From Planctomycetaceae bacterium (GTDB lineage Bacteria; Planctomycetota; Planctomycetia; Pirellulales; UBA1268): a stretch of DNA of 64,000 nucleotides. The notes under the pieces are model-generated. The model was not told where the DNA came from. It did not search any database and worked only from the letters and a program-made list of their open reading frames with translations. Shown here one piece after another: positions 1,477 through 64,000 of the stretch (position 1 is its first letter; each line of letters begins with the position of its first letter). The stretch is from assembly GCA_902629495.1 (NCBI GenBank), contig CACORA010000009.1:1-64000 (forward strand), in the 5' to 3' direction. The translations under genes were made by a program, and so were the position numbers.

Positions 1477-2757
1477 CTATTGTTCCGGCGGAATATCACT
1501 TCCATGAGGGTCGCGTCGCTCCTGACCAAGATCATCTTCAATCTGTCGAAGCAAACGACTCCCAAGATGATGCTCAATGAACTCCGCAGGAGGATGGAGG
1601 TGATCAAGTGGCAGGTCAGCATGCCTTCCAAGCCAAGCTTCCCACAAGCGGTGAGATCGAACAATGGACTCTGCTTTCGTGCGGGAATAAGAATCGAGCC
1701 TCCACTGTCCATTCTTGGAGCGAATTTGACCAGTCACAGCAAGCCACTGTCTGGCAACGCAATCAATCAATCCTTTCGGAGGCGTGACACGCCGCACGCC
1801 TGCTGACTCCTCAAATCTCCAGATCATCGCAAGTTGATCTTCACATGCCACTCGCCATCGCAGCCATGCAACACTCATCAGATCTGAGACAAATCCATCG
1901 GCGGGTGCAAAGACAACCGCCAAGGCATATTCAAAGCCGAGCACAACAGCGATCATGCCTGCAGCATTGGTATTCAAATACCACGCAGCAAGATATCCAA
2001 CAATCGAACCCGTCACCGCGAGCATCACAGCCATACAAACAACATGGTGCATCCGATGTACGAGTAGTTCTGCTGCTGCTGCTGGTACAACGAGCATCGC
2101 AACAATCAGGATGGCTCCAACAGCTTCAAATCCTGCAACGACTGTCATTGCCGTGAACAGAAGCAAAACGATTGTCGCCAACGCCACTGGCATTCCGGCA
2201 GCTCGCGCCCCAGCAAGGTCAAACGCCACGAAGACCTGCAAACGCCAGGACACAATAAGTCCAAGTCCTACTATTCCGACAACCACCAGGCTATTGAGGA
2301 ACGACCGAGGAATCTCACAACCATAGACGGTCACCGTATCAAATGGGACAAGCTCAAGAATCCCATACAGAACGCATGCGGGGTCGAGGTCAACCTGAGA
2401 TGCAACAGACGTAAGAAGGATCACCCCAACAGAAAAAAAAGTGGTAAAGACAACACCGGTGCTGGCATCTTCAGCTAAGCCAACCCCACGCCTTAACACA
2501 TGCGTCAACCAGACTGTAAGTAACGCCGCTACTATTGCCCCCAGAATGACAAGGGGCCCTCCAGGTTGTCCCCCAGCCAAGACCGCCACAACAATACCTG
2601 GCAACACGGCATGACTTATTGCATCACCTAACAAGCTCATTTTCCTAACAACAAGCATTGACCCAACTGCTGCTGCACCAACCGATACCAAAGCAGCAGT
2701 AGCCATTGCCCAGCCATGTATTGGACCGACCTCAGAAAAGAGTTCACCCATGCTCAT
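1477..2757 (-). CDS. Mn/Zn ABC transporter permease (ABC-3 family) fused to an MntR/DtxR-like domain
   Basis: Residues 1-298 are a multi-spanning ABC-3 permease of the TroC/TroD/ZnuB type. Residues 299-426 are a cytosolic extension resembling the metalloregulator MntR/DtxR. Near its start are residues E306-D307. Next comes a winged-helix-like segment that looks shortened, and then a helical metal-binding region with His369, Glu392, Glu395 and His396. From memory these match MntR ligands H77, E99, E102 and H103, and D307 may match D8, while E11 appears to be Ala. The C-terminus 'RDPHGSDIPP' is also DtxR-like. The gene is last in the importer operon and overlaps the upstream permease by 14 bases. 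Permease function is firm. That the tail senses metal and gates or reports on transport is inference. Confidence 0.9.
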   Translation of the reverse strand: MSMGELFSEVGPIHGWAMATAALVSVGAAAVGSMLVVRKMSLLGDAISHAVLPGIVVAVLAGGQPGGPLVILGAIVAALLTVWLTHVLRRGVGLAEDASTGVVFTTFFSVGVILLTSVASQVDLDPACVLYGILELVPFDTVTVYGCEIPRSFLNSLVVVGIVGLGLIVSWRLQVFVAFDLAGARAAGMPVALATIVLLLFTAMTVVAGFEAVGAILIVAMLVVPAAAAELLVHRMHHVVCMAVMLAVTGSIVGYLAAWYLNTNAAGMIAVVLGFEYALAVVFAPADGFVSDLMSVAWLRWRVACEDQLAMIWRFEESAGVRRVTPPKGLIDCVARQWLAVTGQIRSKNGQWRLDSYSRTKAESIVRSHRLWEAWLGRHADLPLDHLHPPAEFIEHHLGSRLLRQIEDDLGQERRDPHGSDIPPEQ

Positions 2758-3655
2758 CAGCTATTCCCTGGCTTCTCAAAGAACGAGCAACACGAGCAAG
2801 TAGCCCTCGCTTCGGAGCCACAAGGCATGACACAAAAAATATCACTGCAGCAAATAAAACAATGACTGGCCCCGTTGCTAATCGAGGCACAATAGCACTC
2901 AAGGCGACACCTCCCACCGCGCTGACCATGCCGATAAGTCCGGCCACCATAAGCATCACGACAAGCCTGTCAGTCCATTGTCTCGCAGCCACTGGAGGAA
3001 TCACTACCAGCGCCGTTACGAGAACAGCCCCGGCGGCCGGTAAACCAACAACGACCATGACTGCCACCAGAACCACCAGCAGGTAATCAAGAAATGCTAC
3101 TGGCCATCCCGTTGCAGCCGCAAAGGATTGATCAAATGCAATCAGTGAGACTTCCTTGAAGAGCATGACCACTACAGAAACAGAGACAAGTGAAACCACA
3201 GCGAGAAGTGCCGCATCACCGGACGTCAGCGCAGCCGTATGCCCAAGTAAAAAATGTTCAAGCCCCGCACTGCCAGGAACACCCCGAGCAGTCATACCAG
3301 CTACAATCGCGATACCAGCACCGAAGCCAACGCTCAGGACAATGGCTGTCACAGCATCATCTCGCGTTCGGGTAAACCGTTTAAGAAAAACCAACACCGC
3401 CACACCAACAATCGCAGCACACAGTGCACCAGCCAGGAGAACGGGTAAATCACGTTTTCCAGTCAGAGCAAAAACGGTTGCCACACCAGCAAGTGTTACA
3501 TGTGCAGCAGCATCACTCACGAGGGCTCGCTTCCGAAGCACTCCTAAACTGCCGACCATGCCCGCCGCAAATCCAACGGCAGCTGTACCAATCATGACAA
3601 CCAGTGTGTTGTATGCAAATAGACCTTCAAATGCCATGTTCGAAAGATTCATCAT
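2744..3655 (-). CDS. Mn/Zn ABC transporter permease (ABC-3 family)
   Basis: This 303-residue polytopic protein is the usual length for an ABC-3 permease. It has about eight to nine hydrophobic helices and the family pattern of an early '[17 protein letters not shown]' loop, where the ATPase couples, and a late '[10 protein letters not shown]' segment. It lies between the ATPase gene (4-base overlap) and the second permease (14-base overlap). The importer therefore probably uses a heterodimeric membrane pore, as in TroCD. Unlike its partner it has no C-terminal regulatory extension. The metal cannot be read from the permease. Confidence 0.92.
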
Positions 3656-4431
3656 GACGTGCGACTCCGCCGTTCGACGGCATGCCCAACTTCGTCAAGA
3701 ATATCGACCACTCCACTGTATGTCCGTTGGACATTCTCTCTGGAAAGCGTCTCATGAGTTGCCCCAGCAGCCACAAGACGCCTGTCAATCAGAGCAACAG
3801 CATCAAACCATTCTCGTACCGTTCGTAGGTCATGATGCACAACAATAACCAGTTTCCCAGCATTACGAAGCTCAGAGAGCACGTGAAGAATCTGCTCCTG
3901 AGAGCGTGCATCGACGCCGGCCATTGGCTCATCAAGAAGGTATATGTCTGCCTGTTGAGCAAGTGCTCTTGCAAGAAAAACTCGCTGCTGTTGTCCACCA
4001 GAAAGACGACCGATCTGACGACGGGCAAGATCCGCAAGACCAACCCGTTCAAGGCAGTCTTTTGCTAGTTGTCGTTCCCTTCTCCTTGGCCAACGAAACC
4101 AGCCCACTTGTGAATACGTTCCCATCAAAACAACATCCATCACACTGACCGGAAAATCCCAATCCACCGTTTCCCTCTGGGGAACATAGCCCACTCGTTT
4201 GCGTACATTACGAAGAGGTTCTCCAAACAGACGAACGTTCCCACCAACAAGTGGCACAAGACCTAGTGCCGCCTTAAGGAGCGTACTCTTTCCGGCACCA
4301 TTCGGCCCCACCACTCCAAAAAGACATGGTTCTGAGATTGTGAGATCCACATTCCATAACACGGGACGGCGACCGTAGGCAGCCGTGACGTCATGAAATT
4401 CAATCAGCGGTGGTGCAGCGGAAGCAGTCAA
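3652..4431 (-). CDS. Mn/Zn ABC transporter ATP-binding protein
   Basis: This is a complete 259-residue ABC ATPase: Walker [11 protein letters not shown]-loop near '[15 protein letters not shown]', signature LSGGQQQR, Walker [12 protein letters not shown] and an H-loop in 'IVVHHD'. The Q-loop sequence with W-D-F-P is characteristic of the manganese/zinc/iron (MntB, TroB, ZnuC) branch. The start codon is TTG, overlapping the stop of the binding-protein gene (TTGA), which implies translational coupling. It powers import through the two downstream permeases. Confidence 0.95.
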
Positions 4432-5372
4432 TTCTCACCTGTGAGTCCGGATACGATGACATCAACATTCGCCCGAAGAGCACCCTCAAGCGTCTCAGCC
4501 CCAGTCCCCGGCGCACCAAGAGCGTCCGAATACAGACGTCCGCCAAGACGTACAACATGTCCTCGCGATTGAGCACCTTCACGGAGTGCGGTCATATTTC
4601 GATCAGCAACACTTGTTTCAACAAAAACTGCTGGTATACGACGGGTTACAACCAAATCGACAAGTCGATTAATATCGTGTAAGCCAGTTTCACTCTCTGT
4701 ACTGGTTCCCTGTATACCAACAACCTCAATGCCATAGGCACGACCGAAATAACGAAATGCATCGTGCGATGTAACCATGACTTTATGCGTTGGATCAATG
4801 GTGGAAAGTTTTTCACGAATCTGCTGATCAAGCGTTTCTAGACGTTGACAATAGTCCGCTCCCATATCCGCAAATTGCGTCGATCCAGAAGGATCAATTC
4901 TGCCAAGAGAAACGACTACCTTTTTCGTGCACTCCGACCAGAGAATGGGATCAAACCAAACATGCGGGTCATATAGACTTTTTGTGACCCGAATAAGCTT
5001 TTCTTTTGGCAACGAGTCTGTCACCTGAACAACTTGTGTTCGACGGGCAAGACGATCTAGCAGTACTGAAAGCTTTCCCTCCAAATGAAGCCCAGATGCG
5101 AAAACAATATCAGCACGTGCCAGGCGATCGGCATCCCGAGGTGTTGCCTTGAAAGAATGTGGGTCAATTCCTGGGCCCATCAGACAATCAATCTCAACAC
5201 GATTGCCAGCAATCTGATGAACCAGATCTGCCACTACCGTTGTAGTGGCAACGACATTTGGACGCTCAACACCCCAAGCAGCATTCGGCTCCCACCACGC
5301 AAAAACAAGCGAGAATGACAAAATCAAACGGAAAACGGAGCATTTGCTAATTTTTGAACAACCAAAACTCAT
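4428..5372 (-). CDS. Metal-binding lipoprotein/periplasmic protein of Mn/Zn ABC transporter (TroA-like)
   Basis: This is a cluster A-I solute-binding protein. I place the start at the ATG at 5372, not at the in-frame start 54 bases upstream, because GAGGAG sits eight bases before it and a signal peptide follows directly. Four candidate metal ligands are visible: His in 'GIDPHSF', His in 'DPHVWFDP', His in 'TSHDAFRYF' and Asp in 'LYSDALG'. The third ligand being His resembles TroA and zinc/manganese binders, not PsaA, which has Glu there. It is the first gene of a four-gene overlapping operon. Its promoter must lie in the A-rich 165-base gap shared with the divergent acetyltransferase gene; I saw no clear Zur or MntR box there. 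Confidence 0.92.
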
Positions 5373-5537
5373 TTTTTGACTCCTCAAAATCTTAGGGTTT
5401 TTCGTTCCTTTTATGCAATTGGGCAAAGGGAGCAGGCCAAAAAAAGGGCAAAAATAAAAAAATAACCCGTGAGTTGACCAAAAAAGAAGGCATTCTTATT
5501 TTCAGAGAAGTTCCATACACCCGCGGAGGCTGAACGG

Positions 5538-10367: not shown

Positions 10368-11015
10368 CTAGCGTCTGATTCCAGTCCGTGCTGTTACACC
10401 AACCATTGTGTCCCGTGTGTTCCCTCCCGGGAGCGACCAAATACCTGTTTCAGCAGACTGCTTCGCTTGCGCTTCTGCTTTACCATCGAAAAAGAGTATG
10501 GCTCCACGACGCAAACGACGCTCAATACGAGGTCCAACCTGAATGCGAACAACATCTTTGACATCTGTACTGAGCAGGAACGTACGAAATTCGATCACTT
10601 CACGACCATCAACGTGCTCAGATTCAAACCGCAGCCCTCCAACCCATCTGGTAAGTCCATCCTGAATAACATCGGGAGTCGTTATAACGCCGGCACTGAC
10701 GTCGAGATCACGAATTCGACTATGTAATTCAGTTGTAAGTGGTTGCGTAGAACCGGATTTGCCAGAAGGTCCTCGGACCTTCACATCAAACGGTATTGCT
10801 TCCGGCGGTTTTGCAGACATTGAGCGACGCATAAGACCAGCAATGGAGCCTGATCCGCTGAAGCCTTCAAGACCAAAGCCTTCGAACACCACCGGAGGAA
10901 CTTCACTTCGACGCGGAGCGCTTGCATCAGCAACACCGCCCAAGAGAAGGAGCGAAAGGCTCACACTTATGACTGCACGATACACCATGCTGAAAACACT
11001 CCGCCTTGTTTCCAT
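10368..11015 (-). CDS. Secreted protein of unknown function
   Basis: A 215-residue protein with a clear signal peptide (about residues 13-32, ending near A-D-A-S-A). A short Gly/Ser-rich stretch follows ('FEGFGLEGFSGSGSIAG'), then a soluble domain with mixed strand-like segments and a basic C-terminus. I do not recognise the family. The reading frame is well formed, runs leftward like the following lipid A block, and is 69 bases from the Gfo/Idh gene. Exported location is supported by the signal sequence only. Confidence 0.7.
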   Translation of the reverse strand: METRRSVFSMVYRAVISVSLSLLLLGGVADASAPRRSEVPPVVFEGFGLEGFSGSGSIAGLMRRSMSAKPPEAIPFDVKVRGPSGKSGSTQPLTTELHSRIRDLDVSAGVITTPDVIQDGLTRWVGGLRFESEHVDGREVIEFRTFLLSTDVKDVVRIQVGPRIERRLRRGAILFFDGKAEAQAKQSAETGIWSLPGGNTRDTMVGVTARTGIRR

Positions 11016-11084: not shown

Positions 11085-12167
11085 TCAACCGGTTTTACGG
11101 TGCTTTAAGAATGAATGAACCACCGATTCACTGGCGATTGGCACGACCGCCGGCCCCTGCGAAGCACCAAACTGCGATTTAGCTAGAGCATCGAGCACTC
11201 GTCCAGCAATTTCAATGGCTGCAGCCCCACCAGATGCTGGCACCACTGGAGCCTGACCGGTTTGAATACTCTCAAGGAAATTCTCATGCTCACAGGCAAT
11301 TGCATTTGCCTCTACCGCCGTTTCAGTGCGGGTCGGAAGAATCTCAGAAAAAAAAGAGTCTTTCATCGCCTGACGCTGTTCCACCGGAATGTCACTTGCC
11401 ACAAAACTCCCATCCCGAACGCAGGATGAGGGAGTCATTGTTGTCACTGTTTTTTCATTGAAGTCGACATCAACAATGCTGCCTGTCGAAACGAGTGAAA
11501 GAGAACGACGGACTGCGGGATGTATCCGTGAGGCAAATAAATCTGCAATGATTCCTGACGAGAACGACAACCGAGCCCGAACCAAATCCTCATGTCCCCC
11601 TGTTGCCACGAACCCTTGCGCCTCAACACTCTCCAATCGCCCCGGCTCAAGAGAAAGAACAAGATCAATGTCATGAATCATCAGGTCGAGCACGACACCC
11701 ACATCCATCGAACGAAAGGTGAACGGTGCTTGACGGTGCGCCTGAATAGCAACCAGCTTTCCAACGTGATCCATCGCTAACTTCCATGCGGGGTTAAATC
11801 GCTCCACATGACCTACCGCAACCGTCCGACCATACCGTCGAGCAGCGATAACAATTGCTCGAGCATCTTCAACCGTCGATGCCAAAGGCTTTTCAACGAG
11901 CAAATCGACACCACTTTCCAACAATGGAATTGAAATCGGTGCATGCAACCCTGTTGGTGCTGCTACGACCGCAGCGTCAACCTTTCCGATGAGATCTTCT
12001 GGACTCGCAAAACCTTCACAACAAAGCGATTTGGCAACTGCACCTCTCGGGCCTTCGCAAGGATCAACAACACCCACGAGCTCAACATCAGACCGCGACG
12101 AAAGCAATCGTGCATGTATTGCACCCAAATGACCACACCCAACTACTCCAATTCGAATACGACTCAT
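11085..12167 (-). CDS. Gfo/Idh/MocA family dehydrogenase linked to lipid A genes
   Basis: A 360-residue NAD(P)-dependent oxidoreductase with an N-terminal Rossmann fold (GVVGCGHLGAIHA, residues about 7-19), the EKP motif ('LLVEKPLAS') and the substrate-side 'DLMIHDIDLVL' helix. The 'VGHVERFNPAW' segment resembles UDP-GlcNAc/UDP-GlcNAcA 3-dehydrogenases. The start ATG overlaps the stop of the small upstream lpxA-like ORF (ATGA). Position in an lpx operon fits a sugar-nucleotide dehydrogenase (GnnA-like), but no aminotransferase partner (GnnB) is in the window, so the substrate remains a guess. Confidence 0.88.
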   Translation of the reverse strand: MSRIRIGVVGCGHLGAIHARLLSSRSDVELVGVVDPCEGPRGAVAKSLCCEGFASPEDLIGKVDAAVVAAPTGLHAPISIPLLESGVDLLVEKPLASTVEDARAIVIAARRYGRTVAVGHVERFNPAWKLAMDHVGKLVAIQAHRQAPFTFRSMDVGVVLDLMIHDIDLVLSLEPGRLESVEAQGFVATGGHEDLVRARLSFSSGIIADLFASRIHPAVRRSLSLVSTGSIVDVDFNEKTVTTMTPSSCVRDGSFVASDIPVEQRQAMKDSFFSEILPTRTETAVEANAIACEHENFLESIQTGQAPVVPASGGAAAIEIAGRVLDALAKSQFGASQGPAVVPIASESVVHSFLKHRKTG

Positions 12168-12472
12168 GCTGCCCTCCGTTGCTCACGACTTCTCACATGC
12201 CACCCACTCTGCTGACGGCTCACAAACCCAAGAAGACGCCCAACATCTGGCATGAGCATTTCCCGAGAAGCAAGAACCTCTCTCACCGAATCAACACCAA
12301 CTTTTGCGCGAAAAAGCAAGCGACAGGATTCACTCATTGCGCCGATTACCACCTGCAAAAATCTGCCCCGCTGCACCCCAACACTCTTGATACACCGATG
12401 CCGATCTGGCATGCCCTCAGACAGACATACACCTTCTTGAACCACGACTGCGGGATGAATCGTTACTGACAT
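12164..12472 (-). pseudogene. Internally deleted LpxA-like ORF (N-terminus joined to C-terminal domain, beta-helix missing)
   Basis: This 102-residue frame overlaps lpxC by 10 bases and the dehydrogenase gene by 4, so it is still wired into the operon. Its first residues (MSVTIHPAVVVQEG) look like the start of LpxA, the UDP-GlcNAc acyltransferase. The rest (from 'PDRHRCIKSVGVQR' through 'SESCRLLFRAKVGVDSVREVL' to 'MPDVGRLLGFVSRQQSG') reads like the LpxA C-terminal helical domain, which in E. coli includes 'AYKLIYRSG' and 'PEVKAFTDF'. About 170 residues of left-handed beta-helix, including the catalytic His125 region, are absent while the frame is kept. It cannot be an active acyltransferase. 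Alternatives: a genuine small protein, or an assembly deletion. The similarity is judged by eye. Confidence 0.7.
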
Positions 12473-13362
12473 TGCCCAGCACCCCCAACCCCCGAGACGT
12501 TGATACCACCATATTCCTCGGCAATTAAGCGTGCCACCATTTCCGCATTTAATTTGTGGCCACTACGACAGGCTCGTACTGATGCATAGACAGGCCGCCC
12601 AACAAGCGACAGATCACCAACAACATCAAGCACCTTATGACGCACACATTCATCATCCCACCGCAACGTATTACCAATTGGACCAGACGGGCCAAAAACA
12701 AGCAGATCTCGATGCCCCACCGACAAACCACGACCGCTAGCCTGCAGACGATCCGCCTCCTCAACGGGAAGAAATGTACGGGCCGACGACAACTGATCTC
12801 GGTACGCATCAGGCGTGACATCAACACGCATGCTTTGCCTGCCAATCGCTACGTGACCATAGTCAAGTTCATATTCAACCGAGAGACCCGGGAATTGCGG
12901 CGGCCCAACCTCTATCCAACTTATATCATCACCAAGACGAATGACCCGTGACACAACAAGCGGCACAACAGGGGCCCCTAGCTCCTCAAGCCCCACTTCG
13001 TCAATCGCATCAACAAATGCACGAGATGATCCGTCAAGCCCCGGCAATTCTTCAGCCGTTACATGCACTTCACAACAATCAACATTCAGACCAGAAAGAG
13101 CACTCAACACATGCTCCACCATCTGAACACCAACCCCTGCAACAGACAGATTCGTCCGAGTAGCTGCATCGACTCGGTACTCCACCGAGGCTGGAATCCG
13201 AACGGGAACCGGCAAATCATCCCGAACAAACACAACACCCGAACCAATGGACGACGGACGCAACTCAACCCGATTGGGGCGACCACTCCAATAGCCAACC
13301 CCAGAAACTTCTGCCGTTTGGCGAAGCGTATGCTGAGGTCGTACAACTAAAGTTTCTGGCAT
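12463..13362 (-). CDS. lpxC: UDP-3-O-acyl-N-acetylglucosamine deacetylase
   Basis: LpxC is the zinc enzyme for the committed step of lipid A synthesis. I chose the ATG at 13362, because the extra 16 residues from an upstream GTG do not look conserved. The 299-residue product has every signature: His84 in 'VEHVLSAL', 'ELPGLDGSSRAF' at 106-116, His242 and Asp246 in 'DECVRHKVLDVVGD', and His269 in 'RSGHKLN'. The zinc ligands and catalytic base are therefore intact. It is not fused to FabZ, unlike some planctomycete relatives. Its last bases overlap the start of the truncated lpxA-like ORF. Confidence 0.96.
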   Translation of the reverse strand: MPETLVVRPQHTLRQTAEVSGVGYWSGRPNRVELRPSSIGSGVVFVRDDLPVPVRIPASVEYRVDAATRTNLSVAGVGVQMVEHVLSALSGLNVDCCEVHVTAEELPGLDGSSRAFVDAIDEVGLEELGAPVVPLVVSRVIRLGDDISWIEVGPPQFPGLSVEYELDYGHVAIGRQSMRVDVTPDAYRDQLSSARTFLPVEEADRLQASGRGLSVGHRDLLVFGPSGPIGNTLRWDDECVRHKVLDVVGDLSLVGRPVYASVRACRSGHKLNAEMVARLIAEEYGGINVSGVGGAGQCQ

Positions 13363-13466: not shown

Positions 13467-14084
13467 CTATCTCACCGGAGGCTGCTGCGCGGCTCCTGCC
13501 ACAGGCGTTCCGTTGAGCATTTTGAGGATGTCTGGAGTGATATCGATACCTGGCTCATAGTACACAATAGGCTTCGTGATGCCCCGCATGATCTGGTTTC
13601 GATCAGCTGAATCAACAGGCTCTCCATCAAAACGATGGACTACAGCAATACGATGCTCTTTGGCAAATTGAGCCACAGCCTTTTCGACTTCGTCGTACAC
13701 CTGCTTGTACACTCGCGCCTCTCGCTCCATGAAATCCTTTTTCTGCAACTGAGCGTTCACATTAAAGTCACCCTGAGCCTTCGCAATTTCAGCCTCAAGT
13801 CGCTTATATTCTGCCGTACCGACATTGAATCCCTTTAGCTGCTCCATCAAACCGTTGATTCGATCTCGCTCAGCCTTCAGGCCGTTTTCAGCCGTCATGA
13901 CTTCATCTTTCATCTGATCCATAGCAGACTTAAATCGTGCATGGTTCTTAAATATGTACCCAATATCGACCACAGCCACATGCGTGGCAGGACCAGCAGG
14001 CTGGACAGGAGCCTGAGCGAACACGGGAACCGATATGGCTACCCCAATGACAAAACACATGATGCCAAAAAACTGCCTTTTCAC
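13467..14084 (-). CDS. OmpH/Skp-family periplasmic chaperone
   Basis: I chose the GTG at 14084, preceded by AAGGAG at good spacing. It opens directly onto a signal peptide ending at A-Q-A, whereas the longest frame adds 16 implausible residues. The mature protein starts with the OmpH-type 'VAVVDIGYIFKNH' strand. A long charged coiled coil of about 90 residues follows, and then the returning 'IAVVHRFDGEPVD' segment and a Pro-rich tail. Skp-like proteins hold outer-membrane proteins in the periplasm. Position upstream of lpxC matches the bamA-skp-lpx order of many Gram-negative genomes, but bamA is not present here. Confidence 0.88.
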   Translation of the reverse strand: MKRQFFGIMCFVIGVAISVPVFAQAPVQPAGPATHVAVVDIGYIFKNHARFKSAMDQMKDEVMTAENGLKAERDRINGLMEQLKGFNVGTAEYKRLEAEIAKAQGDFNVNAQLQKKDFMEREARVYKQVYDEVEKAVAQFAKEHRIAVVHRFDGEPVDSADRNQIMRGITKPIVYYEPGIDITPDILKMLNGTPVAGAAQQPPVR

Positions 14085-14333
14085 GAGAAGCACTCCTTGC
14101 ATGGCGTATGGACGACCATTGAGCACCATCACTCCAACAGTGACCGAGGCTCAATTCGACGGGGATCATTGCAATCTTGCCACGCTAGCTCAATGCCAAA
14201 AAAAGACTGATTTCAGCAAGAAAACGAAAATTCTGATCGTATTTTACTGATTTGCCTCACCGCTGGCTGGAACGAAGGAAAAGCAAGCAGGCCACACCAA
14301 CGCTTCACGCTCTCGTACGATGCCACACTACGA

Positions 14334-53943: not shown

Positions 53944-56900
53944 TTAGGTGCTGAGTCCAGCATCTGGAAGATCAATGGTCGAGTCATCTGGATCCAAACT
54001 GTTGTCTGGATCTGAGATGCTTCGAATGTACTCCGCCGTCAACATGATCTGGTAGGAACCCGACTGGGTTCGGAATCGGCTTGGTAACGTCAGCATGTAT
54101 CTTGCACCATCGACATTTGTCAGCGTCGAGCCACGCAGGGAGACCGTTCTCCCATTGTGAACAAAACGGACAACGTCCATCACAACACCGCTGACGGCCT
54201 GATTGAAGTCAAGATAGATGGAGCTACCATTTGGCAATCGAGGCCCCCACGACCCCACAACTGAAACAGGAGAGGATCCTGTGGCTTGTAGAACGTGAAT
54301 ACTCAGCGGATCACTTTGTAGTCCATTCACCTCTGCGGTGAAATGGTGCGTACGGTAACCAAGCCCAGTGACTGACAATGACCAGGTTCCATCTGATTCA
54401 GACGTGACAAGTCCCAAGATGGTCGTTCCATTCCGAACAGTAACAGCGCTATTTGGCTCTGACGCTCCACCCAGCACAAGGCTTGAAGAATTCGTATTTC
54501 CATTATGGGAGATCGTTTGAGCTGTCTCTGGGTGGACGGCCTGAATCGTAGGCGCTGTTACAGGGCCCTCAGGATCACCAGGATCACCAGGATCACCAGG
54601 ATCACCAGGACCACCAGGATCACCAGGGCCACCAGGGCCTGGGGCATCTCCTTCGAAGACAACTTGATAGGCCTGGCCTAATGGGCTGGAGTTACCGGCG
54701 ATGTCTGTCGCAATCGCACGGAACGCATGAGCCCCCAACGAACTCAAACTCACTGATGGGGTCCATGACCATGCTCCGGTCTCACTGGCTCGAGCATCAG
54801 CAGGATTCAACGGATCCAGCAGCACCATTTGTTTATTTGGAAGGAAGGCAACAACATTGACCGTACTTCCGGCCTCTGCAGTTCCTGAAAGGGTCGGCGA
54901 GAAGTCATCTGTAGAGCCACCGTCGGCAATACTCGTATCGTCACCTGGATCAGTTGTGTTGTTATCGTCCGTTGCATTCGTAATGATTGGTGCACTTGGT
55001 GCTGCTAAATCAACAATAACACGGAATTCTCCAGAACGTCCAACTCGTCCGAGAGTATCTGTGACCATCGCTTCCACATCCACGGGAACAGAATCGCCAG
55101 ATGCAATATTCAGTTTATTTGCATTCAGAATCCAATTCCCGACCGAATTAGCAACCGCTGAACCTAATACTTGCTCCTGATTGTTGAATCTGGCAACAAC
55201 ACGAATGACTGCATTCGGGCTCGCCGTTCCCTGCATGACAAGAGTCAGGTCATTGGTTCCCGCGCCGTAGCTCACTTGCCCTATGACGGGCAACGCATTA
55301 TCACGAATCTCATCAATGGTCACAGACGGGGCAACCGAATCAACCTCGATGTCAAACGGCACTTCACTACTTGTGTTACCGGCCCTGTCAATTGACTTAA
55401 AGGCAAGTGAACGAACACCATCTGCTAGACCAGGCATCTGGAACGACCATCTACCATCCTCCTGAACCTGCTCCACGACTTCGTAAGGGAAGACATCCCA
55501 GCCCACCCAGATAAAGCTCCCGGGTTCTGCCACGCCACTGACAAGAGGCGTGGCATCATCGGTGACTTCACCATTTCTAAGAATTCTCCGAATGATTCCT
55601 TCATCATCAAATACGGTGAACCCTGAGAGCTCTGGCGGAGCCGTTATGTCAACCACCCACACATCAACGTTTTGACGATATGAACTTGTTGCAGTACTGG
55701 TACTACCGTCACTCGGATCTAGACGATCAAGATGTTGACGCACCTGAATCGCACCTACCTGATATGATCCTTCCGCGAGGTCAAAGTGACGCGTTTGCCG
55801 CACCTCTCCATCGCTCCCAAGACTCACAATGCCGCCATTCGAATCGTTCAGTTCCCAACTTGCAGAATCGACTGGTGACGTCGGCAATGCTGGAGATGTT
55901 TCCGCAAAAACAAGCGTTCCATCTTCCAACACTTCAAGAATATCGTGGGCTTGACCGTTGATGGTGATTTGCCACACCGCGTCGGTTGAGTTGCCATCAT
56001 CCACATCCTTCTGCGAGACAATGCCATAGGCATTGAAATCAGTATCAGAGGCTGTCGAAAAACGCAAATCTGGCGTGCCCCACGATCCACCAGCATTGAG
56101 AGAATACTCCCACCTGATCGTTTCATTGACATCCGGAGAGAGAATATCTGACACAATGACACGGGGATTCTTGGTCAGATTATCAGAGAACGTTGTGAGA
56201 TCCCAAAGAATCCCTGTGTCCTGCTGCAAGGCGAGGCCAGGCACTTTCAATGGGGTCAGTGGTCCCACTTCAGTCCAATCGCTCGCTCCCATCACATTGA
56301 TCGCTCGCACACGGAACCGGTATGCATCACCTGAAGACAGACCAAGCTCAACGTGCGTTGTATCAAGTGGATTTGAAAGCAGATCAGAACTCCAAACACC
56401 GTCTTCACGTTTTGACTCAAGTTGATATTGCGTAATCGGTGATCCATTGGCAAATGCTTGCCATTCAAGACTGACCTGACCTTCGTCAGCCAATGCTGTG
56501 GTAAACACGGGTGCATTCGGCGCTGCGACAAGTGACACATCAAAAGAGATGGTTCCACCCGTTGCATTTGGCAAGACCGTATTGCCTGCCAGGTCTGTCA
56601 GGAATGCTGCCTCCGTAGCACTTCCGTTGCGAGACGTCACGTTGATTGTGTACGTACCTATCGGAAAGACGACAGCTGAATCAAAGACCACTCGATTTTT
56701 TGTCTCAAGGTATCGGAAGAAGTAATGCTCTCCCTCAACCAATGTCTGTATATTCCCTGAACCAGGAAAATCAGAATACAGAATTTCAAATGCGTCAGCC
56801 AAAACGGTCGCTTTGTCAATTCCCGCCCCAATATCATCCAATTGCAAAACGAATTTTAGCTGACCTTTTGCATTGGCATTGCTTAATTTGACGACACCCC

Positions 56901-59900
56901 GACGCCCATCTTCATCATGTGTTGAGTTATCCAACGGCACCGCAATCTGAATCGTTGGTTGTGTAAAGTCCATACGATCGATGGCCCCACGGTCCGTGAA
57001 GACATTGGAACCAAGTCCTGTGCCGATGGATGCAACATTCGGATCATCTCCTCGCAATTGTCCATAGATATCTCTATCTGGGGCAAGTATTGGAGACTCC
57101 GGTATACCAACTTGATTGTTGACAACAACAAACTCATTTCTGTCTTGCAAGGCATCGATAGCACTATCGATAGCCCTTGATTGAGGCGCGAGGTAGAAAT
57201 TACCTCGATCCACATCGACAAATGGATCCGTGCCCAACGTAATGGAATTTGTCACAGCGGCTGCTCCGGCTCCACCGCCGCCCATGCCACCGCCTCCACC
57301 ACCGGCTCCACCACCGGCTCCACCACCGGCTCCACCACCGGCTCCAGCGGTAACCTGCGTGATCACATTGTGGAACGCTGAATAGCCGATGACTGTACGA
57401 CTATTACCAAGTCCATCGACAAGAGACGTCCCATCAACAAGAACGCCAGATTCAAGGCTAGCGAGAAGATTATTGAGTAATGTAGGGGCTGCATTGTCTT
57501 CGACTTCGATACCAATCCCTCGTGGGTTATCTTGATCATCAACGCCACCAAAGATTGTGTTATTGATAATCCGTCCATAAGGAACCGACCCAAGCGGGGC
57601 TGTGTTCCCCTCTGAGTTATCATCTCCACTGAAAAGAATACCGGCTGTTCCGCTTACTGAAATCACATTGTTCGTCACAACCACACCAGGGACAAGACGT
57701 CCATCATTCAGAGTTGGAAGGTGACGGGCAACTCCCGGCTGGAGTGGCACAAAGCCGTTATCGCGGGATGCATCAATACGAATGCCGTAGACAGAAGCAT
57801 CTGCAATAAAGTTGTTTTCGATGAGGAAACGCCCTTGGTCTCTGGTAAGATTCTGATCACCAACAAGGCCAACGTTTTGTGCTCGTGGTGCCGCTGTAAT
57901 GATTGCGTTTCGAAGTGTGATACCACCCCCTTGATCAGCAGGGCGCGATCCAGACTGAAAGAACCCGATACGCGTATCGTCGGTGAGATGACTGTTTCCA
58001 GGCGGCAGTTGGCCCAGTATTCCATTCAGGGCTGCCACAAGATCGATGCGAGCCGTTTGGAACGTCTGCCCCGTGAGGATTGAAAAGAGATCAGCCGTGG
58101 GATCGACCGCAGTAAATTTATAGATGGAGTTCCATGTCGTACCACCATCAAGGCTGATCGCGATACCGTCACCTGCAGGCACGTGGTTGTCTTCTACGAC
58201 GAGCGTGCCAGGATCGTCACCGATCGTAAATTGCGATGGCAACGGAACCACGGGCTCGTTCGGAGAAATTTGAGGAAAAGCGAACACATCCCACGTTCCA
58301 GCCTGATAGTCAACCTCAAGAAATGCTGATGACTGCCCCGCAAGCTTCACGGCCCATGTGATCGCATTGAAGTCAGATGTACTTCCGCCATTTCCTTCCA
58401 TTCGAAGAGCATCTTCAACAAAATCGAAGTCTGTATCGACAGCCGTTATCTGACCATTTCCAAGCGTTGTGAGACTGTCCCCAAGGGCTGAGAGGGCATG
58501 TCTCCCAAGCACGATATCCGGAGTGGCTGCAGCCTGAATACGGCGTGCATTCGTATCAAAGACTTGTTCTGGTTGAATCGCAATCGAGTCACGCCTCGGA
58601 GTAATGGAGCTCATGATTTCAGCAAACTCCGCACCACGCCGAACCTCGAGTTGATACTCACCCTCCAGCACCTGCTCAGGATAACCCGGACTTCCCGTTG
58701 GGGTATTGATATTGAAGAAGTTCTGATTCGTCGCAGCGTTTGTCACCATCTCGCCACGCTCGGCAAAGCCTACAATGATGTCATCAATGTAAAACCCTTC
58801 ATGATCATTATTAGCACTGGCAACCTGAACGTTTTCGCCGTCGCCGATTGCTCCCTCAGGCCCAGGAATGTTATGAAGATTGACACCCGTACGATCAGGG
58901 AAGAAGGCAACCGCTTCAGCAGCCTTGAATGAGACATTCGATGCACTCTGAACCGTCACCGTCACGACACCTGAGTTCGGATCCGTAGCAATGGCGGTCA
59001 CGACCGCAGTGCCTTCCGGTACCGTGAGAATATTGTCTGCAGATGTGAGGGGGTCGGCCCCTGGATCAATGACTTGCGGATTGGCTCCATGCCATCGTTG
59101 AACCCGCATGCCAACCTGCATACCAGCGGCTGAGTCCGTTTCAAAGGTGAACTCCAATGGATTTAATGGATTTCCCGTGGCAACCGCGTCACTCATCACA
59201 CTCCGAATAGCTGCCGGTGTCGCAGTGGCGTTGTGATTACTCAAATTCCGCTGAAAATCACCACCCGTGCTAAAGTCAAAACGCAACTGAATATTTGACT
59301 CTCCAGCAAATTCACCGATGTCAATTCTCGCCTGTCGCCATTCCCCGGTATTATCAAAGAGTTCCTGAACCTGCTGATTTGGCAAGGTTCCAATCCGTGC
59401 TGACGTCGACAGATGGATGGGCAGCTCAGCATTACGTTGACTGTTATTGGTTGCCAAGAGTTCCCATGACAGGCCACCGTCTCGAGAGGCAAAGACGCGA
59501 GCACTGTCTCGCATCACATCGGCTGCGATCGAACTGTTTGCACCTTCCGTCTCAAGGAAATAATTGAAATACAATGTTGGCTTGTCACCATAGTCATACC
59601 CGGCCAGGCTAAATGGATTGGTGATCATGCTGCCACGGGCACCGCCAGGCAGGTTATAGGTGTTGCCAAGGCCACCCGCATTCAGATCCTGTGCCCAGTT
59701 GTACTCTCCACCAACTGTACCAACGGTACCAAACTGCCCTGCAGACGTTCCAAACACTTCATCATTTCCACCCCAGTCATTTAGACCAAAGTACATGCTC
59801 ACGCCACCTTGTGTCCCAGTCGTACGCGCATGATCTGCAGTTGGATTGATCCCATGTCCGGGGTCATTGTTTCGCTGTGTCGTTGGGTGCCAGAGATTGA

Positions 59901-62900
59901 TATCCAGCGGGGAAACGGCAAGGCCTCGAACGCCTCCCAGACGCTCATTCGAAATCCATGAATCCCCGATGCCATCGCCATCCGTGTCGAACACGTTATC
60001 GACAACAGCGGCATTCCCATTCCCGGCCCCGTCAGGATCAATGAAGAAGACACCACCACCTTCGGTGATCGCCATGAACATGCCCTGATACCGACCACCT
60101 TCAAGATTCACCGGTGCGGTCGCAAGACCCTGTAACGATCTTCCATTCAGGAGCGGCGAGAAATCACGGGCATCACTGATTTGGAGGGCATCACGAAAAT
60201 TCCCCGTAACGTTAAATTCACCAGCCGTTGCCCCAGCACGCGCTCGCGGGTTCCGCGGAGTAATTCTATAGAACTGGCCACCTTCACTTACTCCATACAG
60301 CGCATCGTCATCACGGATTTCATTTCTGAATTGCAGGCCTGTCGTGAATCCTGTAATCACAACAGGGTTTCCACTGCCATCAACATTGTTGCTGTTGACT
60401 CCGGCTGTGTATCCAATAGCTGGAACACTCTGCGAAAGATCAATGCCTGTTGGAATGAATCCCATCCGGCCAAAGGTATCACTTGGTGCAGTAGTATTAG
60501 CAGCAATCGGGGTACTGGCATTGCCTGCGTTATCTCCGGCATACAACACAGACCGTGATCCAAACGCAAGCACGTGGTTATCGTCTCTCATCGAGTAATA
60601 GACAGATGCTTCCTCAGCTTCATTAGCGTCTGCGTTGTAGACACCCGGTCCAGAACGACCGATGGCAATGGCATCCCTCGGTGCATTGCTGATGTTGACA
60701 GCATTCGAATCCGGTGGTGGATTACCACCGGCATCAGCCACCACCCCGTCCGTCCAACGGGCTGTACGGGCTCCTGTTGCTGGGTCAACATTCCACACCG
60801 TCCCAACGCTGCCGGCCCGATCGTAGAGCACCAGGGTGCCATCAGTCAGCATGTCCAGATCACCCGCAGTAGCACCCCAACCACCATATGCATCCGGCTG
60901 ATCCGGAGCACCTGTAAAGGGATTGATCGCTCGCAGGCCTCTGGTCGTTGCCACAAAGACTGTCAGATCATCCAGCGTAAATGGAGCAACATTGGCTTGC
61001 AAGGCAATATTGGATGAAAGATCAATGATTGGCCCTGACACAGGCGTGACGGTTTGCCCACCGCTGACGTACCCAGTTGTTCCAATATGATCTTCAACAA
61101 TTCTTCGAACAGATGCGACCGGTTCAAGACGAATCGATGCATCCGTTGCCGCCGACTGGAGTGTCGCATTGAGCACTGTGGGAAGCTGTTCATTACTGGA
61201 TACAGCAACATAATAGGTCGTTGTGTCACCGGGAATACCAGCTTCCAGATGGACCGAACCAATGTACGGATCCAACATTCCAATAGAACCGCGCGAGAGA
61301 TCATCAAAATCATGCGCCTGACCAACCCCCGGCTGATCATCTGCAATATTCGAATCCCGACCAACATAGATCAAGGAACCAGTTGCATCAAAAACAGAAA
61401 GTGTGAGGTCACCCTTGAATCCATCGGCATAGTCAATGTCAAACATTGCCGCCCATGTCTTGGCCTCGTCATTGACATTCTGAATAACTTCGATGTCCGC
61501 ATAGTCAAGCGTAAATGAGTACCAATCAATATCAGTCGCATTGTCCATGGTGCCAGCAACGCTGATTGTGTTGCGATCTGTCTGCAACAGGTTGCCCAAC
61601 GCCTGCGCCTGACCAAACGCGTCATTCGCCGCTGACTGCTCACCAGTTTCCCCAACAAGCTGGGAGTGATGCGGCAGGCCAATGACATCAATGCCAATCG
61701 TTGGGAAGCGAATATCCGCATACCGAACCGTGGAGCCTGCTTTTTCGTCTCGCTGTCGTTCTCGGATCCTCAGTTCGTATCGACCGCTGCTGGCTCCGAC
61801 AGGATTGGCAAGACCCGCTTCATATTGCGCCGGTGTTGTGGTTGATGAATAGGCTGACTGACTTCGCACTCGAACAAAGTACTGGGTTTCCACACCCGTC
61901 TGTCCGGGAAGTGTCACCCGGAATCCAGGATTCCGTGGATTCGCAGAATACATGTCCACTCCACGATGGTCATCCTTATTTAAGGACATCCCGCCACCTT
62001 CACCCGTCAGGGAAAACCCAAGGGTGGTCGCCGAAACGTTCCCATACTCATAGGACAACTCGATCCGCGAAGTTCCTGTTGGCACATTATCAAAGGGCAA
62101 TGTGATCAAGCCTGCTGCATAATCAATCGTTGCCGACGCATCAACCGCTCGAGCTGAAGGATTTCCAATCGGCGTAAACGTAAATGCTCCATCTCGGGCA
62201 ACGGTGAATGTTTGAATGGCTGTTTCATCAACATACAGCACACCTGAAAGTGTTCCGGGAAGAATATTGGCATGGGGAATCTGGAAGGTACGGGTTCCAA
62301 AATACAGTGTGCTACCATGCTCAACATCAATAGACTGACTCAACACGATTTCATCAGATACAGGATCCACTGACTGCACCGTCGTCCCAGGCAGCACACC
62401 AAGCTCTCCATCAGGACGTGGATTCGCCAACACGGCTCCATTCAACTCGATATTGTCAGCATCCGAAACAAGAACCGTATCGCTGTTGAAGCCAAACCCA
62501 AGGATGTCGCCGTTTTCGACGACAACCGGCTGATTCCCAACCGCGTCTGGGTCACTATCCAATACAATCGTCGCCCCAACACCAACATCATCCGGTATGA
62601 CCTCGATGACACGTGTTCCGGCTGGAATGCCGTCTGCTCCATTCACAAGAATTCCCGTTTTGATCACCTCACCGTTGACATCAAATCGGTCTGGGACATG
62701 GATGCGTGTTGTGGCAATCGGTCCTGTGAATGCAGGATCTGAAAAGGAAAATCCAATAATATCGTCTTGCTCAAACCCAATGTCATTGCTCAGCGTAACC
62801 GTGCGAGAGGCTTGATCAAATCCGGCAACTGTTCGAGACAACAGAAATCCATTGAGGGTTACCGCAGATCCGATTTCAGGATCAACCGAATCATCAATCC

Positions 62901-64000
62901 GGATGCGATTCGTGGTAACTGTCTCACCAGGAACAAAATCAAAACCAAGGAAATCCCCATCGGCAACATCAAGCGTATCTGAAAATGTCACCAGGCCCTC
63001 TGTCATGCCAGAGAGTGCAATCGTATTTACTGTCAGCGGATTGCCAAGCGGATCAAGCGCCGCAACACCATTGACGGTGACTGTAACGCCATCACCATCA
63101 AAAATACCGTTGTACGCATCTGTATCGATGGTGACCGTCGTTTGATTGAATCCAAATCCAAGCGTGTCACCATTGGAAATGGTCACAGCCTGATCCAACA
63201 GAACCGTACCGCCTGTTCCAACGGCATCAGGATCAACGCTGACAACACGGGTTCCAGCAGGAACATCTGAGCCGGCAACGCCATTGAAAAGACTCACCAG
63301 CACGCCATCAGCAACACCACTCGCATCGCTCACATGAACACGTGTTGTCGACGTCGGGCCGGTAAAGGAAAATCCAATAATATCGTCGTCGTCAACGGTA
63401 ATCGTTCCACCAAGCTCAAGGGTCACGGTACGCGATGTAGGATCAAAGCCTCCAGCCGCCACGTCGAAGCCACTATCCGCTCCGTTGATAAAGACATCCG
63501 CACCATCCGTCGGTGCCACCGAATCATCAATCCGGATGCGATTCGTGGTAACTGTCTCACCAGGAACAAAATCAAAACCAAGGAAATCCCCATCGGCAAC
63601 ATCAAGCGTATCTGAAAATGTCACCAGGCCTTCTGTCATGCCCGAGAGTGCAATCGTATTTACTGTCAGCGGATTGCCAAGCGAATCAAGCGCCGCAACA
63701 CCATTGACGGTGACTGTAACGCCATCACCATCAAAAATACCGTTGTACGCATCTGTATCGATGGTGACCGTCGTTTGATTGAATCCAAACCCAAGCGTGT
63801 CACCATTGGAAATGGTCACAGCCTGATCCAACAGAACCGTACCGCCTGTTCCAACGGCATCAGGATCAACGCTGACAACACGGGTTCCAGCAGGAACATC
63901 TGAGCCGGCAACGCCATTGAAAAGACTCACCAGCACGCCATCAGCAACACCACTCGCATCGCTCACATGAACACGGGTTGTCGGTGTCGGGCCAGTAAAG
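53944..64000 (-). CDS. Giant secreted multidomain repeat protein (N-terminus beyond window)
   Basis: The frame is open to base 64000, so at least 3,350 residues are encoded and the start is outside the window. From N- to C-terminus: Asp/Gly-rich beta repeats of 211 residues; a PPC-like domain ('DIDWYSFTLDYADI', near 61500); a beta-propeller-like region; a jelly-roll/MAM-like region (about 59250-59600); a parallel beta-helix ('IENNFIADASVYGIRID', about 57370-57890); a Gly-rich linker; a fibronectin type III-like domain (about 56230-56535); two or three Ig-like domains ('GTAEAGSTVNVVAF'); a GDP-rich linker; and a C-terminal beta domain. There is no catalytic motif, LPxTG or dockerin. It is probably a surface or matrix protein involved in adhesion; the function is inference. 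Confidence 0.9.
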   Translation of the reverse strand, partial: FTGPTPTTRVHVSDASGVADGVLVSLFNGVAGSDVPAGTRVVSVDPDAVGTGGTVLLDQAVTISNGDTLGFGFNQTTVTIDTDAYNGIFDGDGVTVTVNGVAALDSLGNPLTVNTIALSGMTEGLVTFSDTLDVADGDFLGFDFVPGETVTTNRIRIDDSVAPTDGADVFINGADSGFDVAAGGFDPTSRTVTLELGGTITVDDDDIIGFSFTGPTSTTRVHVSDASGVADGVLVSLFNGVAGSDVPAGTRVVSVDPDAVGTGGTVLLDQAVTISNGDTLGFGFNQTTVTIDTDAYNGIFDGDGVTVTVNGVAALDPLGNPLTVNTIALSGMTEGLVTFSDTLDVADGDFLGFDFVPGETVTTNRIRIDDSVDPEIGSAVTLNGFLLSRTVAGFDQASRTVTLSNDIGFEQDDIIGFSFSDPAFTGPIATTRIHVPDRFDVNGEVIKTGILVNGADGIPAGTRVIEVIPDDVGVGATIVLDSDPDAVGNQPVVVENGDILGFGFNSDTVLVSDADNIELNGAVLANPRPDGELGVLPGTTVQSVDPVSDEIVLSQSIDVEHGSTLYFGTRTFQIPHANILPGTLSGVLYVDETAIQTFTVARDGAFTFTPIGNPSARAVDASATIDYAAGLITLPFDNVPTGTSRIELSYEYGNVSATTLGFSLTGEGGGMSLNKDDHRGVDMYSANPRNPGFRVTLPGQTGVETQYFVRVRSQSAYSSTTTPAQYEAGLANPVGASSGRYELRIRERQRDEKAGSTVRYADIRFPTIGIDVIGLPHHSQLVGETGEQSAANDAFGQAQALGNLLQTDRNTISVAGTMDNATDIDWYSFTLDYADIEVIQNVNDEAKTWAAMFDIDYADGFKGDLTLSVFDATGSLIYVGRDSNIADDQPGVGQAHDFDDLSRGSIGMLDPYIGSVHLEAGIPGDTTTYYVAVSSNEQLPTVLNATLQSAATDASIRLEPVASVRRIVEDHIGTTGYVSGGQTVTPVSGPIIDLSSNIALQANVAPFTLDDLTVFVATTRGLRAINPFTGAPDQPDAYGGWGATAGDLDMLTDGTLVLYDRAGSVGTVWNVDPATGARTARWTDGVVADAGGNPPPDSNAVNISNAPRDAIAIGRSGPGVYNADANEAEEASVYYSMRDDNHVLAFGSRSVLYAGDNAGNASTPIAANTTAPSDTFGRMGFIPTGIDLSQSVPAIGYTAGVNSNNVDGSGNPVVITGFTTGLQFRNEIRDDDALYGVSEGGQFYRITPRNPRARAGATAGEFNVTGNFRDALQISDARDFSPLLNGRSLQGLATAPVNLEGGRYQGMFMAITEGGGVFFIDPDGAGNGNAAVVDNVFDTDGDGIGDSWISNERLGGVRGLAVSPLDINLWHPTTQRNNDPGHGINPTADHARTTGTQGGVSMYFGLNDWGGNDEVFGTSAGQFGTVGTVGGEYNWAQDLNAGGLGNTYNLPGGARGSMITNPFSLAGYDYGDKPTLYFNYFLETEGANSSIAADVMRDSARVFASRDGGLSWELLATNNSQRNAELPIHLSTSARIGTLPNQQVQELFDNTGEWRQARIDIGEFAGESNIQLRFDFSTGGDFQRNLSNHNATATPAAIRSVMSDAVATGNPLNPLEFTFETDSAAGMQVGMRVQRWHGANPQVIDPGADPLTSADNILTVPEGTAVVTAIATDPNSGVVTVTVQSASNVSFKAAEAVAFFPDRTGVNLHNIPGPEGAIGDGENVQVASANNDHEGFYIDDIIVGFAERGEMVTNAATNQNFFNINTPTGSPGYPEQVLEGEYQLEVRRGAEFAEIMSSITPRRDSIAIQPEQVFDTNARRIQAAATPDIVLGRHALSALGDSLTTLGNGQITAVDTDFDFVEDALRMEGNGGSTSDFNAITWAVKLAGQSSAFLEVDYQAGTWDVFAFPQISPNEPVVPLPSQFTIGDDPGTLVVEDNHVPAGDGIAISLDGGTTWNSIYKFTAVDPTADLFSILTGQTFQTARIDLVAALNGILGQLPPGNSHLTDDTRIGFFQSGSRPADQGGGITLRNAIITAAPRAQNVGLVGDQNLTRDQGRFLIENNFIADASVYGIRIDASRDNGFVPLQPGVARHLPTLNDGRLVPGVVVTNNVISVSGTAGILFSGDDNSEGNTAPLGSVPYGRIINNTIFGGVDDQDNPRGIGIEVEDNAAPTLLNNLLASLESGVLVDGTSLVDGLGNSRTVIGYSAFHNVITQVTAGAGGGAGGGAGGGAGGGGGGMGGGGAGAAAVTNSITLGTDPFVDVDRGNFYLAPQSRAIDSAIDALQDRNEFVVVNNQVGIPESPILAPDRDIYGQLRGDDPNVASIGTGLGSNVFTDRGAIDRMDFTQPTIQIAVPLDNSTHDEDGRRGVVKLSNANAKGQLKFVLQLDDIGAGIDKATVLADAFEILYSDFPGSGNIQTLVEGEHYFFRYLETKNRVVFDSAVVFPIGTYTINVTSRNGSATEAAFLTDLAGNTVLPNATGGTISFDVSLVAAPNAPVFTTALADEGQVSLEWQAFANGSPITQYQLESKREDGVWSSDLLSNPLDTTHVELGLSSGDAYRFRVRAINVMGASDWTEVGPLTPLKVPGLALQQDTGILWDLTTFSDNLTKNPRVIVSDILSPDVNETIRWEYSLNAGGSWGTPDLRFSTASDTDFNAYGIVSQKDVDDGNSTDAVWQITINGQAHDILEVLEDGTLVFAETSPALPTSPVDSASWELNDSNGGIVSLGSDGEVRQTRHFDLAEGSYQVGAIQVRQHLDRLDPSDGSTSTATSSYRQNVDVWVVDITAPPELSGFTVFDDEGIIRRILRNGEVTDDATPLVSGVAEPGSFIWVGWDVFPYEVVEQVQEDGRWSFQMPGLADGVRSLAFKSIDRAGNTSSEVPFDIEVDSVAPSVTIDEIRDNALPVIGQVSYGAGTNDLTLVMQGTASPNAVIRVVARFNNQEQVLGSAVANSVGNWILNANKLNIASGDSVPVDVEAMVTDTLGRVGRSGEFRVIVDLAAPSAPIITNATDDNNTTDPGDDTSIADGGSTDDFSPTLSGTAEAGSTVNVVAFLPNKQMVLLDPLNPADARASETGAWSWTPSVSLSSLGAHAFRAIATDIAGNSSPLGQAYQVVFEGDAPGPGGPGDPGGPGDPGDPGDPGDPEGPVTAPTIQAVHPETAQTISHNGNTNSSSLVLGGASEPNSAVTVRNGTTILGLVTSESDGTWSLSVTGLGYRTHHFTAEVNGLQSDPLSIHVLQATGSSPVSVVGSWGPRLPNGSSIYLDFNQAVSGVVMDVVRFVHNGRTVSLRGSTLTNVDGARYMLTLPSRFRTQSGSYQIMLTAEYIRSISDPDNSLDPDDSTIDLPDAGLST
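54571..54642. repeat. Nine-bp imperfect tandem repeat encoding Gly-Asp-Pro linker
   Basis: Eight 9-base units of the form AGGATCACC, the first four identical and the rest with one or more changes, encode a G-D-P/G-G-P collagen-like linker between Ig-like domains of the giant protein. Such tracts can change length by slippage. Confidence 0.92.
57298..57345. repeat. Twelve-bp tandem repeat encoding Gly-rich linker
   Basis: Four identical 12-base units (ACCACCGGCTCC) encode repeated G-A-G-G residues on the minus strand, within a wider Gly-rich tract (about 57262-57351). The tract links the beta-helix region to the following domain of the giant protein. Confidence 0.92.
62888..64000. repeat. Tandem 633-bp near-identical repeats in giant protein gene
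   Basis: The block starting at 62888 recurs at 63521, giving a 633-base period (211 codons). Over the 480 bases that can be compared before the window ends I count about eight differences. A diverged third copy with the same motifs ('IGFSFSDPAFTGP', 'PAGTRVIEVIPDD') lies at about 62270-62890. More copies probably continue beyond the edge. Confidence 0.93.

Follow-up and report, generated by a model that had tools for sequence, protein, structure and literature searches.

An in-frame lpxA remnant between lpxC and gfo of a planctomycete, probably a redundant paralogue in decay

The lpxA position of a planctomycete lipid A operon holds a 102-codon open frame in which the start and the C-terminal part of an LpxA are joined and the middle is gone. 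The frame is most probably (a rough probability of 0.8) a decaying remnant of a redundant paralogue, named lpxA1 here, with the first acylation of lipid A carried out by a second enzyme, LpxA2. The explanation is likely an ordinary one, the decay of a redundant paralogue and not a missing step of the pathway. The remnant was compared throughout with the closest related locus, L001 of genome G001, where LpxC is 71% identical to that of the window (the whole stretch of 64,000 nucleotides that was analysed) and the LpxA between lpxC and gfo, a position called the slot below, is full with 275 aa. The features of the locus are as follows.

10368..11015, minus strand: gene without a Pfam match, downstream of gfo, kept in the syntenic block
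11085..12167, minus strand: gfo, intact gene of a Gfo/Idh/MocA oxidoreductase with weak likeness to UDP-GlcNAc 3-dehydrogenase
12164..12167, minus strand: ATGA, overlap of the remnant stop with the gfo start, found also in L001 and G009 (L154)
12164..12472, minus strand: lpxA1 remnant, in frame, 102 codons plus stop, based on the ATG start, homology and conservation tests
12167..12424, minus strand: residues 17-102 of the remnant, end of the beta-helix and LpxA C-terminal domain PF13720, free of gaps against L001 LpxA1
12173..12177, minus strand: GGAGG within the lpxA1 tail, Shine-Dalgarno-like and probably serving gfo
12428..12472, minus strand: residues 1-15 of the remnant, the LpxA N-terminal start (MSVTIHPAVVVQEGV; L001 counterpart MSVSIHPTALVEAGA)
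12463..13362 (to 13410 from an upstream GTG), minus strand: lpxC, intact, 299 aa from the ATG used
13467..14132, minus strand: OmpH/Skp-like gene, a conserved neighbour

Homology of the remnant to LpxA

An earlier note, made from the letters of the window, had described a 102-codon frame overlapping lpxC and a Gfo/Idh gene, and this description was borne out. The frame starts with ATG; it shares 10 nt with the 3' end of lpxC and 4 nt, ATGA, with the start of gfo. The LpxA-like start described with it also holds, with residues 1-15 matching the start of LpxA. The placement of these residues inside the beta-helix, as given by MAFFT, was set aside; the N-terminal placement is preferred because of the position of the start codon, the overlap with lpxC and the MSVxIHP match to L001. 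For the LpxA-like C-terminal domain, the homology stands but the boundary does not, as the domain begins earlier, with LSEGMP at residue 17.

A profile search of the C-terminal part, proposed in the earlier note as a check, returned LpxA. Pfam PF13720 was matched with an E value of 1.8e-4 and 22.3 bits, just below the 24.5-bit cut-off, and the remnant aligns to positions 183-258 of the 264 positions of the LpxA profile. Residues 16-102 are 60% identical to the LpxA1 of the sister G001/L001 (E 4.0e-27). The two NCBIfam LpxA profiles gave 16.2 and 18.9 bits, below their curated cut-offs of 231 and 226. The left-handed beta-helix of hexapeptide repeats is absent, and nothing in the remnant corresponds to the stretch of L001 between residues of about 23 and about 188. 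Missing with it is the column aligned to E. coli H125, which we take to be the catalytic histidine; this column is H in 82/82 LpxA1 (the non-identical sequences of 107 loci) and in 20/20 LpxA2 (from 20 loci). As judged from the C-terminal homology and the position between lpxC and gfo, the remnant is confirmed as derived from LpxA, and it fails as a functional LpxA. The missing part, first put at about 170 residues, was refined to about 166 codons by comparison with L001 (counted from the matching Met, 268 residues there and 102 in the remnant). The central claim, an internally deleted LpxA between lpxC and gfo, is confirmed by the homology at both ends and is far beyond chance.

Compared with known LpxA (TIGR01852, PRK05289, PDB 1lxa), the remnant shares the operon position, the first 15 residues and PF13720, whereas it has neither the beta-helix nor the catalytic histidine and reaches 16-19 bits where 226-231 are called for. 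Compared with the sister LpxA1 (L001:10870-11697), it shares the slot, the ATGA overlap with gfo and the tail REQRRAA; unlike the remnant, the sister protein is complete, with N and R where E. coli has N198 and R204. The last 21 bases of the remnant are 20/21 identical to L001, against 16-22/30 for the earlier 30-base blocks. These last bases include the GGAGG, which sits 5 bases ahead of the gfo ATG. For the Gfo protein, an identity as GnnA (UDP-GlcNAc 3-dehydrogenase) was not accepted, with 173.6 bits to NCBIfam NF040723 against a cut-off of 450, and it stays a lead.

Constraint on the remnant and its closest homologue

With the remnant as query, one cluster was found among 5.8 billion proteins: P0001 (sources ncbi and lgn), which was compared at the protein level. 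It has 102 aa and 16 member sequences, is 96% identical to the remnant (4 substitutions) and carries the identical junction. The earlier note had offered a recent deletion as one meaning of the frame. The deletion stands, and its recency is only relative, since P0001, differing at 4 residues, has it too. That an artefact of assembly or binning took out the 498 nt is scarcely credible. Assembly error is argued against because the 96%-identical P0001, from other public sources, carries the junction, and misassembly does not account for the decay of the C-terminal part described below. A deletion made in assembly is therefore an unlikely cause and is largely refuted.

Small proteins with an LpxA C-terminal match at E <= 1e-5 numbered 179, with 119 besides P0001 among the matches listed. 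A scripted check found an LpxA start joined to the C-terminal domain in none of those 119. The alignment score for a remnant-like junction was 58 for the positive controls, P0001 and the remnant, and at most 43 for the others listed. Most of the 119 listed resemble unbroken C-terminal ends of the kind that truncated genes or starts placed too late would produce. Stand-alone LpxA C-terminal proteins were considered as a class and rejected, as no remnant-type junction occurs among the 119 listed. An IMG/VR scan for the remnant gave five stretches that fit the pattern, and none of the five encodes a relative.

Constraint was measured at the conserved sites of 54 LpxA1 with at least 60% identity to L001, with LpxC and Gfo controls numbering 52 and 51. 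At sites conserved at 95% or more, changes were found at 5/29 sites in the remnant, 1/67 in the window LpxC and 1/81 in Gfo; at invariant sites, the counts were 3/22, 0/45 and 0/53, respectively. The window LpxC also passes its equivalog cut-off (196.3 bits, cut-off 187.25), and the earlier description of it as intact is upheld. Among 42 C-terminal sites conserved at 90% or more, the remnant differs at 10 and P0001 at 13, where the mean of the 54 relatives is 1.6; one of the 54 equals the remnant at this level (10 changes), and one relative exceeds it at the 95% level (7 against 5) and at the invariant sites (5 against 3). Of the four residues that distinguish P0001 from the window, three occupy sites conserved at 90%. 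Similarly, when 40 taxa were compared two by two (741 pairs once the window is excluded), the C-terminal identity of the remnant was on average 3.8 sd below the prediction from LpxC+Gfo identity, and the next lowest taxon lies at -1.6.

At the equivalent of E. coli N198, 82/82 LpxA1 and 20/20 LpxA2 have N, and the remnant has K. The position aligned to R204 is R in all 82 LpxA1 and all 20 LpxA2, and it is W in P0001. Both residues presumably bind substrate in E. coli LpxA. These comparisons show a remnant apparently under relaxed constraint, and, with its essential parts lost as well, it can be classed as a pseudogene when both signs are taken as the definition. In a simulation of neutral decay with assumed indel rates, the chance that the frame is still open was 0.40 after 10 substitutions and 0.15 after 20. 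The frame that stays open in two variants, the window and P0001, may be a weak hint of a kept function.

The preserved frame bears on another explanation, by which the remnant has been retained as a small protein for a new function, such as that of a domain which binds acyl carrier protein or LpxA2 and tunes lipid A synthesis. The frame and its length are kept in the window and P0001, the window keeps both overlaps, and the 102 residues include a recognisable PF13720 domain. This explanation is nevertheless very unlikely, given the loss of LpxA-invariant positions (the K and W above), the share of window-P0001 differences that hit conserved sites, and an architecture found in a single homologue, P0001, with none among the 119 other small proteins listed. 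The new role for a small domain, suggested earlier, is not supported, with invariant LpxA positions changed.

The slot and the second LpxA in related genomes

GTDB species genomes were scanned with an LpxC alignment, and the best 80 of 579 confirmed loci were kept. Of the 80, 79 carry the name of a planctomycete group, and L020 is labelled bacterium only. A pair of lpxC and gfo on the same strand could be assigned in 77 loci (L040, L054 and L077 gave no pair). Among these 77 placeable loci, from the best 80 of 579, an LpxA match lies between lpxC and gfo in 74, including L076 with odd geometry, and is missing in L031, L043 and L080. The comparison of this interval in related genomes, suggested earlier as a check, finds a full LpxA1 at L001 and a slot LpxA in most relatives. 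L089, in the wrong orientation, was left out of the C-terminal comparison. The tree of LpxC+Gfo groups the window with L001, at a distance of 0.39, against 0.70 to the next, and the branch parting the two from all others has a support of 100.

The family of G001 comprises 72 genomes of Pirellulales-like planctomycetes, for which the counts below come without completeness values. LpxC is found in 70/72; in each of G020 and G022, the match to LpxC continues across a single in-frame TGA. A search with the remnant found the slot-type LpxA1 in 59/72. With TIGR01852, at least one LpxA above the curated cut-off is found in 71/72 genomes and an LpxA outside the slot (LpxA2) above the cut-off in 65/72, with a contig-end fragment in G006 besides; both LpxA1 and LpxA2 are above the cut-off in 53/72. 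LpxA2 was not found with this profile in six of the 72 family genomes (G005, G015, G032, G034, G038 and G070). LpxA2 is 37-44% identical to the L001 LpxA1. Of the histidines at the E. coli positions H122, H125, H144 and H160, all four are kept in 20/20 LpxA2, and LpxA1 keeps the equivalents of H122, H125 and H144 in 82/82 and of H160 in 81/82.

The LpxA2 of G001 (L156:5896-6744) clears both NCBIfam LpxA cut-offs. Its top PDB match is 3hsq, presumably the Leptospira LpxA that acylates a 3-amino sugar. This match, together with the GnnA-like Gfo gene, hints at a lipid A that may contain GlcN3N. Among nine neighbour proteins at four LpxA2 loci scanned, no lipid A gene was found. A 1366-aa TPR protein lies beside LpxA2 in G001 and is matched in 17/20 LpxA2 loci.

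Ten family genomes (G035, G062-G069 and G071; L144-L153) have LpxC and no slot LpxA. The order OmpH-lpxC-gfo is intact at all ten loci, with a gap of -8 to 131 nt between lpxC and gfo. LpxA2 and LpxD are kept in 10/10, and an LpxB match (E <= 1e-10) is present in 9/10, with 7 of the 9 below the curated cut-off; of the ten searched, G062 gave no LpxB match. Three other genomes were uninformative on the slot, with LpxC cut at a contig end (G024) or not found (G037 and G070). G062-G069 and G071 form one clade with a support of 100, in which G065 is represented by L031, taken as its contig; G035 (L144), L043 and L080 stand separate. By parsimony, the slot copy was lost five times including the window, three times in or around the family (the window lineage, G035, and the clade of G062-G069 with G071) and twice outside it (L043 and L080). 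The complete losses of G035, G062-G069 and G071 resemble the window in that lpxC and gfo are kept, theirs with LpxA2 elsewhere; they differ from it in having no LpxA1 match in the slot, whereas the window retains a 102-codon piece.

The earlier note had found it paradoxical that LpxC is intact beside a lost LpxA. The paradox largely dissolves, as most genomes of the family have a second LpxA and ten relatives, with lpxC adjoining gfo, lost the slot copy yet keep LpxA2. Of the three meanings offered there, replacement by another acyltransferase fits best; the replacement, though, is probably no exotic enzyme but a second LpxA of the sort that 65/72 family genomes carry. An unrelated acyltransferase was considered and rejected as unneeded for the same reason. 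By analogy with the relatives, the window genome probably carries LpxA2 as well.

The second LpxA would lie outside the window, as no further LpxA piece was detected within its 64 kb with LpxA1 or LpxA2 queries. The same absence would also fit a loss of the whole lipid A pathway, with LpxA1 going first and no other LpxA in the genome, and a GC content of 50%, where the sister locus has 65%, suggests a change of the genome. A loss of the pathway is quite unlikely, however, with LpxC fully conserved at its 45 invariant sites and with LpxC, LpxD and LpxA2, and in nine of ten an LpxB match, kept by the slot-loss relatives. In addition, almost all of lpxABCDKL is reported essential in Planctopirus limnophila in an excerpt of PMC10632474.

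Proposed course of events and context

The decay of a redundant lpxA1 is proposed to have run as follows, with the first two points shown by the comparisons above. The family of G001 usually has two full-length LpxA, LpxA1 between lpxC and gfo and LpxA2 elsewhere, both with the histidine aligned to H125. In the window lineage, an in-frame deletion of about 166 codons took away the beta-helix of LpxA1, and what is left has changed at conserved positions, in contrast to the well-conserved lpxC and gfo. The first acylation of lipid A would be done by LpxA2 encoded outside the window, with LpxC still acting on the LpxA2 product. The remnant and its 3' end may survive in part as the carrier of the gfo ribosome-binding site, with ribosomes moving from lpxC to gfo by translational coupling. 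In-frame deletions may have been favoured under such an arrangement, as a frame-breaking one would uncouple gfo. A stronger version, in which selection keeps the remnant as a translational relay for ribosomes from lpxC to gfo, in a lineage that has passed from lipid A of two specialised LpxA enzymes to lipid A of LpxA2 alone, is possible but doubtful. Relatives without any LpxA1 manage with other lpxC-gfo spacings.

Two LpxA copies have been described in other bacteria. A duplication of lpxA is noted for Geobacter sulfurreducens in an excerpt of PMC3087551. Capnocytophaga canimorsus has two lpxA genes with gnnA/gnnB, and the LpxA pair is proposed to go with a GlcN3N/GlcN hybrid backbone (excerpt of PMC3342949). 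Similarly, Segatella copri has two LpxA, about 45% identical and with catalytic residues kept, which are proposed to yield different acyl chains (excerpt of PMC12643348). The planctomycete family likewise has two LpxA paralogues, at 37-44% identity against the roughly 45% of S. copri; C. canimorsus and S. copri belong to another phylum, and a deletion of either LpxA copy is unmentioned in the excerpts of PMC3342949 and PMC12643348. The main text of PMC3422733 contains no word beginning with lpx. In excerpts of the literature on planctomycete lipid A and LpxA duplicates, neither two LpxA nor a deleted slot copy is described for the family of G001.

With these comparisons, the puzzle of an LpxC without an LpxA becomes a testable case of paralogue redundancy. 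A planctomycete family with mostly two divergent LpxA is useful for studying the role of the second LpxA, such as acyl-chain or sugar specificity. The case also calls for caution, as a single operon is no basis for inferring the loss of a pathway.

Several further observations were made on the window and related loci. The window and L150 (no slot LpxA) have a GC content of 50%, against 64-69% in L001, L154, L010 and L031. Low GC thus accompanies the loss of LpxA1 in two lineages; L031, also without a slot LpxA, does not show it. A 426-aa fusion of an ABC-3 metal permease with the metal-binding domain of an iron-dependent repressor (PF02742) is encoded at 1477-2757 on the minus strand, within a ZnuA-type uptake operon (1477-5426). 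At 53944-63966, also on the minus strand, lies an open frame of 3340 aa whose last third contains bacterial Ig-like and fn3 domains; the frame runs open at the window edge when read without a start codon.
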